Source of the DNA: Pseudarthrobacter sp. NIBRBAC000502770
Lineage (GTDB): Bacteria > Actinomycetota > Actinomycetes > Actinomycetales > Micrococcaceae
Length of the DNA stretch: 64,000 bases
Assembly (NCBI RefSeq): GCF_006517815.1
Contig: NZ_CP041198.1
Span: forward strand, 2,976,001 to 3,040,000
Direction of reading: 5' to 3'
A program made the position numbers and the translations under genes. The notes under the pieces are model-generated. The model did no database searches, had not been told where the DNA came from, and saw nothing but the letters and a program-made list of their open reading frames with translations. Positions 37,933-39,243 of this stretch are shown here, in pieces (position 1 is the stretch's first letter; each line of letters starts with the position of its first letter).

Positions 37933-39054
37933 CTAATTCTGCTGCCGCCGCTTCCGCGCCGACGCTGCCAGCTGCTCCAGGACCGAAGCCGAGACATCCC
38001 AGTCCATGCAGGCGTCCGTCACGCTCTGGCCGTAGACCAGCGTGGAGCGCCCCGCCGCGTGCTCTGCAACGTCCAGGTTCTGGGCTCCGCCCACCAGGAA
38101 GCTTTCCAGCATGACGCCGGCAACGGCCCGGGCTGCCACTCCCCCCTCTTCAAGCTGGGCACCGATCTCCAGCGCGACCTCCGCCTGCCGGTGGTGGCTC
38201 TTGCCGCTGTTGGCGTGGCTGGCGTCAACGATCAGGCGGGGATTGAGCCCCTTGCCTGCCAATTCGGTGGAGGCCCGTTCCACGTCGGCCGCGGAGTAGT
38301 TGGGCCCCTTCCGGCCGCCGCGGAGGATGACGTGGGTGTCGGGGTTTCCTGCCGTTGCCACCAGCGCTGCCCGGCCCTCGCCGTCGATCCCCAGGAACGC
38401 CTGCGCCGCCGCGGCGGCACCGCAGGCATCGATGGCAACCTGCAGGCCGCCGTCGGTCCCGTTCTTGAACCCGATGGGCATGGAAAGCCCGGACGCCAGC
38501 TGCCGGTGGATCTGGCTCTCCGTGGTACGCGCACCGATGGCGCCCCACGAGATCAGGTCAGCCATGTACTGGGGGCTGATCGGTTCCAGGAATTCAGTGG
38601 CGGTGGGCAGGCCCAGCGCGGTGACCTGCTGAAGGAACTGCCGGGCCGTGCGGAGGCCGGTGACCATGTCGTGGCTGCCGTCCAGCCGGGGATCGTTGAT
38701 CAGGCCCTTCCAGCCCACCGTGGTACGCGGCTTCTCGAAGTAGGTCCGCATGACAATCAGCAGGTCTTCCTTGTGCTTCTCGGCCTGGCTGACCAGCCGC
38801 CGCGCGTACTCGAGGCCGGCCTTGGGGTCGTGGATGGAGCAGGGGCCTACGATGACCAGCAGGCGGTCGTCCACACCGTCCATGATGGCGCGCACCTCAT
38901 CGCGGCCGCGTTCGACGACGGCAGCGGCCCGGGCGTCCAGTGGCAGTTTGGTGAGGAGTGCCGACGGGGTGGGCAGCGGGGTGAATTCGCTGACGCGCAG
39001 GTTCGAGGTGGACTTGGTGTCGCTGGCCGGGGCTGCTGCTGTTGCGGTGCTCAT
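37933..39054 (-). CDS. aroG: 3-deoxy-7-phosphoheptulonate synthase (type I DAHP synthase)
   Basis: 373 residues. It condenses phosphoenolpyruvate and erythrose 4-phosphate, the first step of aromatic amino-acid synthesis. Type I features include LLVIVGPCSIHDP, MRTYFEKPRTTVGWKGLINDP, NPDTHVILRGG and VDASHANSGK. ATG behind AGGA. It is preceded by a leader peptide gene and hairpins, so it is probably controlled by attenuation in response to aromatic amino acids. Confidence 0.94.
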   Translation of the reverse strand: MSTATAAAPASDTKSTSNLRVSEFTPLPTPSALLTKLPLDARAAAVVERGRDEVRAIMDGVDDRLLVIVGPCSIHDPKAGLEYARRLVSQAEKHKEDLLIVMRTYFEKPRTTVGWKGLINDPRLDGSHDMVTGLRTARQFLQQVTALGLPTATEFLEPISPQYMADLISWGAIGARTTESQIHRQLASGLSMPIGFKNGTDGGLQVAIDACGAAAAAQAFLGIDGEGRAALVATAGNPDTHVILRGGRKGPNYSAADVERASTELAGKGLNPRLIVDASHANSGKSHHRQAEVALEIGAQLEEGGVAARAVAGVMLESFLVGGAQNLDVAEHAAGRSTLVYGQSVTDACMDWDVSASVLEQLAASARKRRQQN

Positions 39055-39119
39055 GTTCGGGGTCCTGTTCCAGATGGGAAGCGGGCCCGGATTTCAGAAC
39101 CCGCCGGAGAAACGGCGAA

Positions 39120-39152
39120 GGGCAGAGAATGATCTCTGCCCTGTTGGCTCTG
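39120..39152 (-). promoter_or_regulatory. Attenuator hairpins before aroG
   Basis: On the minus strand CAGAGCCAAC (39152-39143) can pair with GTTGGCTCTG inside the leader gene (39201-39192). The next hairpin, GGGCAGAGA-TCAT-TCTCTGCCC (39141-39120), is a terminator-like stem followed by TTCGCCGTTT, about 65 bp before the aroG start. Confidence 0.65.
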
Positions 39153-39170
39153 AAGGAAGTTGGATGCGTG

Positions 39171-39230
39171 TCAGTTAGACGCGGGCTCCTCCAGAGCCAA
39201 CGAAAAATACGCATACCAACGGTTAGTCAT
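39171..39230 (-). CDS. Leader peptide of the aroG attenuator
   Basis: Nineteen residues: MTNRWYAYFSLALEEPASN. Codons 5-9 are Trp-Tyr-Ala-Tyr-Phe, so translation would stall when any aromatic amino acid is short. It ends with TGA. The stop is 19 bases before the first partner of the hairpin. C. glutamicum has a known leader (AroR) with Phe codons upstream of its DAHP synthase; this one is different in composition. A TATGGT box lies 7 nt before the ATG, so the leader itself may be leaderless. Confidence 0.8.
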   Translation of the reverse strand: MTNRWYAYFSLALEEPASN

Positions 39231-39237
39231 GGGAAAG

Positions 39238-39243
39238 ACCATA
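39238..39243 (-). promoter_or_regulatory. -10 box of the aroG leader transcript
   Basis: TATGGT on the minus strand, seven bases before the leader peptide ATG. Confidence 0.45.

Follow-up and report, generated by a model that had tools for sequence, protein, structure and literature searches.

Upstream of the DAHP synthase gene aroG lies a short reading frame rich in aromatic codons, followed by a stretch that can fold into several RNA helices. The question raised by this locus is whether these parts regulate the gene and, if they do, at which step. In what follows, the window denotes the whole stretch of 64,000 nucleotides that was analysed. The frame and its associated RNA almost certainly make up a leader-peptide regulatory element. 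The reading that we favor, with a probability of roughly 0.6, is that the element is a ribosome-mediated attenuator of DAHP synthase that works via a leaderless leader, and that its output in the window's genus is most likely the translation of aroG.

Leader frame and its start

The leader and its target occupy the following positions.

39238..39243, minus strand: −10 box TATGGT, separated from the ATG by a 7 nt spacer and placed for a transcription start at or near the leader AUG
39171..39230, minus strand: leader frame MTNRWYAYFSLALEEPASN plus stop, 19 codons, ATG at 39230 and TGA ending at 39171
39204..39218, minus strand: sensor codons Trp5-Tyr6-Ala7-Tyr8-Phe9, whose aromatic residues persist in diverged leaders
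37933..39054, minus strand: aroG, class I DAHP synthase, start at 39054 (PF00793, 285.8 bits; TIGR00034, 477.3 bits against a cut-off of 173.2)

An earlier sequence-only reading had described a 19-codon minus-strand frame with Trp-Tyr-Ala-Tyr-Phe at codons 5−9 and a TATGGT box 7 nt 5′ of its ATG, and both are confirmed (ATG 39230 to TGA 39171, box at 39243−39238). That the DAHP synthase gene is preceded by an aromatic leader peptide, as it described, is also borne out. AroG is present in 61/61 same-genus genomes, the window's own included, and the element lies 5′ of aroG in all 61 (upstream DNA from 30 loci and 31 regions). RWYAYF is in frame in every one of these copies and the leader end is normal in 60. 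In the remaining copy (L060), the final codons are out of frame owing to a 1-base deletion; that genome is 79% complete and its AroG is split too. AroG is in pieces in both L060 and L061 (genomes G053 and G030), which are low-quality genomes possibly carrying sequencing errors. In an ungapped comparison, which lowers the upstream figure, identity averages 37.7% over the stretch from −60 to −16 and 97.6% over the leader. Third positions of leader codons 4−17 are 99.3% identical, compared with 72.4% for 150 aroG codons (30 loci), which argues for a constraint on the RNA as well as on the peptide.

The sequence-only reading had also held that the leader is translated without a ribosome site, and the genus copies support this as probable. 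In 61/61 of them, 6 or 7 nt separate the end of a TAnnnT hexamer from the leader start, and AGGA or GAGG occurs at the SD position of the leader in 0/61; because a promoter box thus stands at the start codon and no SD is found, leaderless translation is well supported, and the RNA would begin at the leader AUG. Among the 112 diverged copies, AGGA or GAGG is found at that position in 4, and TAnnnT ends 6−8 nt 5′ of the most upstream possible start in 83. It ends 5−9 nt 5′ of some possible start in 111/112 against an average of 0.9 at shifted positions, where the figure of 111 allows any candidate start and the 0.9 background uses one. The leader peptides across copies take the forms RWYAYF, RWYWRF, RWFTY, RRYPYF, AYWRF, AYFWF, and RFYF. 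Trp, Tyr, and Phe are all present in 93/112 diverged leaders when read from the most upstream start; frames entered the 112-copy set only if they held an aromatic residue, which makes a zero count of leaders lacking aromatics meaningless.

Distribution and downstream enzymes

A 21-base pattern taken from segment b of the RNA (listed below) matched at least 116 stretches among named records. An in-frame RWYA leader with TAnnnT 5−9 nt 5′ of it accompanies 115 of the 116 matches listed, L161 being the exception, and the 80 matches listed by title come mostly from Arthrobacter, Pseudarthrobacter, and Paenarthrobacter. One record titled Sporosarcina beigongshangi REN13 (L072, NZ_JADHDY010000003.1) has a full Micrococcaceae-type element before an ATG; its 8000-base stretch is 64.8% G+C and looks like contamination or a mislabelled record.

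Searches with three models (R1, R2, and R3) ran with strict filters that lose weak matches. Model R1, in which helix e was entered one column off, served to find copies and to build alignment A2. It detected the element in 59/149 genomes of the family (14/32 genera) and in 38/297 genomes of the order (16/94 genera, one of them a partial match). With model R2 the class yielded 69/394 genomes and 27/137 genera, weak and partial matches counted. Model R3 matched 62/149 genomes of the family, three of them weakly and partially, and 146/201 genomes (25/31 genera) of family f22, the lowest-ranked of them weakly. Overall, diverged copies are spread over many families of the class. In a sample of 296 genomes from the phylum it matched eight, all within the class, and found the element in none outside it. 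In the family, the 59 genomes with a strong match coincide with the 59 of 149 in which AroG is present, and in 59/59 the element adjoins AroG on the same strand. A second copy elsewhere in the genome was considered and rejected, the next matches reaching at most 19.1 bits against 185.7 and being taken as noise; short reverse-strand matches were taken as palindromic hairpins.

Downstream of the diverged elements, AroG similarity is found at 35/44 loci. The other nine, whose leaders are of the same kind, are eight loci of family f35 (L293, L302, L304, L305, L309, L311, L313, and L315) and L320 of family f38. For three of the nine downstream proteins, a chorismate mutase domain scores above cut-off in 3/3 and a DAHP synthase domain in 2/3. 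Their best NCBIfam matches are DAHP synthases, below the curated cut-offs, and a search of solved structures with one of the three gave matches to DAHP synthases. Because these proteins join a divergent DAHP synthase-like domain to a chorismate mutase, the element appears to have remained tied to the function in genomes whose enzyme gene is a different one. In the window itself, the strand that carries aroG also encodes, immediately 3′ of it, a helix-turn-helix (HTH_17) protein of 100 aa (37565−37867, minus strand).

Alternative RNA helices

Folding of 140 nt of the region gives z = −7.6 against shuffles, and 96 nt give z = −7.0; with these values and its presence in 61/61 genus genomes, the element is not a product of chance. 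Its segments are as follows.

39209..39220, minus strand: segment a, GUUGGUAUGCGU, which can pair with a′ in the minimum-energy fold
39159..39169, minus strand: segment a′, ACGCAUCCAAC, 3′ of the stop codon
39186..39200, minus strand: segment b, UUGGCUCUGGAGGAG, codons 11−15, partner of b′
39144..39159, minus strand: segment b′, CUUCCUUCAGAGCCAA, which alternates between b and d2
39119..39142, minus strand: hairpin c, AGGGCAGAGA-TCAT-TCTCTGCCCT, the terminator-like hairpin of the sequence-only reading, without a U-run
39102..39117, minus strand: hairpin d, CGCCG-UUUCUC-CGGCG
39100..39105, minus strand: segment e, GGCGGG, 3′ arm of d, with bases common to d and d2; partner of e′
39093..39102, minus strand: segment d2, GGGUUCUGAA, past hairpins c and d, the second possible partner of b′
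39077..39088, minus strand: segment e′, GGGCCCGCUUCC, partner of e or of the SD region, imperfect in the window's genus
39060..39067, minus strand: aroG SD region, CAGGACCC, with AGGA at 39066−39063

These segments form two consistent sets of helices, b:b′ with e:e′ on one side and b′:d2 with d and e′:SD on the other. In the second set, which we call the OFF fold, a compact three-way junction is formed by b′:d2, c, and d. By its sequence, the locus has both a short, probably translated frame with pathway-product codons before a biosynthetic gene and two helices, b:b′ and b′:d2, that are very probably mutually exclusive, one of them sharing bases with the leader frame. The sequence-only reading had found no obvious second partner for the second segment in the terminator stem. 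This gap is largely closed, as b′ (39159−39144) pairs not with that stem but with d2 (39102−39093) beyond the hairpin.

Support for the two sets comes from 51 diverged copies that were hand-picked as non-redundant from 77 loci (70 searched and 7 more). Alignment A3 holds 45 of the 51 (L219, L225, L227, L229, L230, and L256 were left out), and alignment A1 holds 31 of 57 distinct genus elements. In A3, the set b:b′, c, and e:e′ has 92.6% of its cells paired and both-side changes in 14/24 pairs, and the set b′:d2, c, and d has 95.0% paired and both-side changes in 11/20. None of 500 shuffles matches the paired-cell or both-side values of either set, and slid versions drop to 37−59%. By helix, both-side changes occur in 3/9 pairs of b:b′, 7/9 of c, 4/6 of e:e′, 3/4 counted pairs of d, and 1/7 of b′:d2. 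That sole b′:d2 pair is a three-way change in seven sequences, with G for A in b′ and C for U in both b and d2; these sequences belong to two groups (g55 and f8) and may therefore reflect one or two events. An eighth sequence, L253, has the G in b′ with U on both sides. The comparison across relatives that accompanied the sequence-only reading as its proposed check therefore did not end in a lack of conservation, since leader codons are conserved and helices covary.

The segments were also tested with their own partners against permuted ones. For b:b′, e:e′, and a:a′, 0/600 permutations did as well; the fraction was 0.0017 for b′:d2 and 0.027 for e′:SD. Control pairings gave 0.50 (b:SD), 0.79 (b:d2), 0.44 (d2:SD), and 0.053 (e:SD). 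In the test that gave 0.027, the e′ and SD windows overlap in L251−L253, and with non-overlapping windows e′:SD reaches 0/900 by energy and 0.0056 by longest run. The SD tests used 47 of the 51 sequences (no start was called in L227, L230, L256, and L257) and the non-overlapping version used 46, also omitting L229, with downstream start codons set by a rule that requires an SD-like motif. Class-wide, pairing of b with the post-stop stretch and of b′ with the next 75 nt each gave 0/400 permutations. A fixed-window test of the window's genus found e′:SD weak (−8.9) and d2:SD strong (−13.6), opposite to what most other clades show. The idea of d2:SD as an OFF helix throughout the class was rejected, because this pairing did no better than permuted partners, although it is strong in this genus.

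Further support for b′:d2 comes from several f22 genera that are missing c and d. There, b′ and d2 abut as one hairpin, so b′:d2 is supported and c is dispensable in those genera. The copies in which c and d are apparently missing are L358−L368 and L370 (genera g144, g182, g239, g245, g251, g252, g255, g256, and g258); b′ and d2 are nearly adjacent, and at the SD several of these copies carry a small CCTG...CAGG hairpin. In another genus (g22; L225, L229, and L230), L225 and L229 have a longer stretch from d2 to aroG, with extra G+C-rich complementary stretches.

The effect of a ribosome was modelled by imposing its footprint, 15 nt past the first P-site nucleotide, on transcripts ending 5′ of the SD. 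In the window RNA, b:b′ and e:e′ form with A-site codons 2−7, the state is mixed at codon 8, and b′:d2 without e:e′ forms from codon 9 on. Among the 51 diverged sequences, a stall at the first aromatic codon gives b:b′ in 49 and a ribosome four codons past the last aromatic gives b′:d2 in 38. Both states are obtained in 36 and the required e:e′ switch as well in 30, such that 15/51 fail the two-state test and 21/51 the full one. A stall at the last aromatic codon leaves b:b′ with fewer than five pairs in 37/51, and the window RNA takes the OFF form when the ribosome stalls at Phe9. Because b:b′ is no longer held there, Trp5 and Tyr6 would be better placed signals than Phe9. The earlier suggestion that one leader senses all three aromatic amino acids thus stands as far as the conservation of Trp, Tyr, and Phe in the genus goes, but not for Phe9 in the fold model.

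Output step and relation to known systems

The aromatic leader peptide and the two mutually exclusive folds indicate that the gene is probably switched on at aromatic shortage, and there is a good chance that b:b′ is the ON form. When Trp- or Tyr-tRNA is short, the ribosome would stall at codons 5−6 and leave b free. Free b could then capture b′, d2 would stay unpaired, e would pair with e′, and the aroG SD would be open. When aromatic amino acids are plentiful, ribosomes would pass over b and b′ would pair with d2 around hairpins c and d; with e locked in hairpin d, e′ would be free to cover the aroG SD. If the leader is not translated, a:a′ may enclose b and favor the OFF form in some copies. 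Since the second partner of b′ lies downstream and begins a chain that reaches the aroG SD, translational control fits better than a switched terminator, and in the window's genus the modelled output is somewhat more likely to be mainly translational than anything else. The difference in the equilibrium cost of opening the SD between the two states averages 0.02 kcal over 47 sequences, with 13 above +1, 10 below −1, and −0.7 in the window. An attempt to read the ON/OFF direction from this cost failed, as it has no net direction, and the output step is therefore argued from the conserved e′:SD complementarity and from the order of folding.

The sequence-only reading had instead proposed transcription attenuation, in which hairpin c is a terminator and alternative helices decide its action. 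The hairpin and a 10-bp complementary pair before aroG (GTTGGCTCTG with CAGAGCCAAC) are both present, but only the stem of the hairpin resembles a terminator. The bases after this stem are TCGCCGTTT in the window, with no U-run, and a terminator scan of 38950−39350 finds 0 terminator-like sites. Some relatives do have a U-rich tail 3′ of c (5−7 T in 9 bases in 5 of the 23 copies listed), f35 has tails such as CTTTTTCG, and the Corynebacterium glutamicum-like copy has TTTTTT there, with an aroF response reported at the transcript level in PMC11802643. Few intrinsic terminators are predicted in Actinobacteria, according to PMC2965389, and a poor U-run therefore need not exclude termination. Against this, no conserved helix that competes with c was found, even the C. 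glutamicum-like RNA forms c wherever the ribosome is placed, and conservation runs on past c to the SD. The GC-rich stem with a U-run, exclusive with an antiterminator, that marks a trp-type transcription attenuator is not seen in the window. We consider termination at c an unlikely output overall, and as a terminator switched by an antiterminator the hairpin at 39142−39119 is unsupported in the window's genus and was rejected there.

Less probable still is a mixed or indirect output, in which a covered aroG SD uncouples translation, Rho ends the transcript, and both levels change. Rho-dependent polarity is the general basis of such an output. It would reconcile an SD switch with the transcript-level effects reported in C. 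glutamicum (PMC11802643), yet nothing in the sequence requires Rho. Direct sensing by the structured RNA, in the manner of a riboswitch or by binding a protein, with the peptide incidental, is very improbable: synonymous leader positions are conserved too and the OFF fold is a compact junction, but aromatic residues persist while codons and spacing vary (RWYAYF, RWYWRF, AYWRF, AYFWF, and RFYF), the −10 box is positioned for the leader start codon, the c and d part is absent in some genera, and no Rfam family matches. Rfam 15 returned only Mcr7 in the window (12.3 bits against a gathering score of 380) and no match up to E 0.5 in eight diverged loci.

For the attenuator reading that we favor, the closest described system is the aroR-aroF attenuator of C. 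glutamicum (Neshat et al. 2014, as related in passages of PMC4046766, PMC11802643, PMC7356990, and PMC3890552), the only described relative of the element found in the open-access literature. The sequence-only reading had cited a leader with Phe codons at this DAHP synthase gene. The codons reported in PMC4046766 are Phe-Tyr-Phe and not Phe alone. Phe limitation is reported to raise aroF transcription, and Tyr to be without effect (PMC11802643). An exact match to the 27-base stretch of a published aroF primer was found in 1/231 genomes (genus of G991), with the upstream primer stretch there too, and identified a C. glutamicum-like copy, L376; model R3 found two copies in g231 (E 2.9e-9 and 8.2e-4). 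L376 was compared with the window by eye and folding only. Its leader, MFAARFYFMSGSGASPRQLAISCAT, retains complementary b and b′, TTTTTT follows c, and no d2 was seen. In folding, b:b′ survives a stall at codon 6 or 7 but is gone by codon 9, as in the window, and c forms at all ribosome positions. A stall at the first codon of Phe-Tyr-Phe retains b:b′. The response of aroF to Phe limitation therefore fits b:b′ as the ON form but does not fit the equal placing of the Tyr codon. The two systems share an aromatic leader (RFYF in C. glutamicum) before a class I DAHP synthase gene, a −10-like box (TAAGGT in C. glutamicum), b/b′, and hairpin c. They differ in that C. glutamicum has TTTTTT after c, no d2 seen, and a leader without Trp, whereas the window has d2, e, and e′ leading to the SD. 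The window thus has the homologous leader and b/b′ of an aroR-type element, without a U-tract terminator after c.

The trp attenuators of Corynebacterium and Streptomyces (PMC1262725) resemble the window in having regulatory codons and three segments, the middle one with two partners; they have GC-rich terminators with poly-U, whereas the window has no terminator signature and its first switch segment is part of the leader frame. The LEU element 5′ of actinobacterial leuA (same source) also combines a leader peptide and conserved alternative structures with involvement of the target SD and no terminator. As described there, direct pairing joins its Leu codons to the leuA SD in a pseudoknot, whereas in the window the SD would be reached through two intermediate swaps; the two are set apart by description. 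Mycobacterial leaderless Cys-rich short ORFs 5′ of cysteine genes (PMC4633059) share the amino-acid-rich frame, the leaderless start, and an actinobacterial host, but concern cysteine, and the portion of PMC1262725 consulted reports no conserved hairpins for cys regions. The uORFC-13-1 motif 5′ of Acholeplasma aroF (PMC8632094) likewise places Phe codon(s) in a short frame ahead of a DAHP synthase gene; compared by description, it differs in having an RBS and an apparent intrinsic terminator, and only at least one Phe codon is noted in the excerpt. The passages of the 2005 Actinobacteria survey (PMC1262725) give no conserved structures beyond those for Trp, Cys, Leu, and T-boxes, and a partial account of leader peptides in S. 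lividans names Leu, Trp, Ala, Ile, Met, and Thr, with none aromatic before a DAHP synthase gene.

A wider proposal, which we put forward tentatively and which could well go either way, is that the element is an ancient leaderless switch of the class Actinomycetia. It would carry the aromatic signal via two strand swaps (b′ between b and d2, e′ between e and SD) to DAHP synthase translation, would have been kept with a non-orthologous DAHP synthase-chorismate mutase, and would have become a U-tract terminator in Corynebacterium. The alignments could seed a new RNA family, as Rfam 15 is without one, and the element makes a terminator-less leader-peptide attenuator available for dissection. If the proposal is true, there would be one testable rule for control of entry into the shikimate pathway across much of a bacterial class, amino-acid producers included, along with a possible evolutionary exchange of output between translation and termination.
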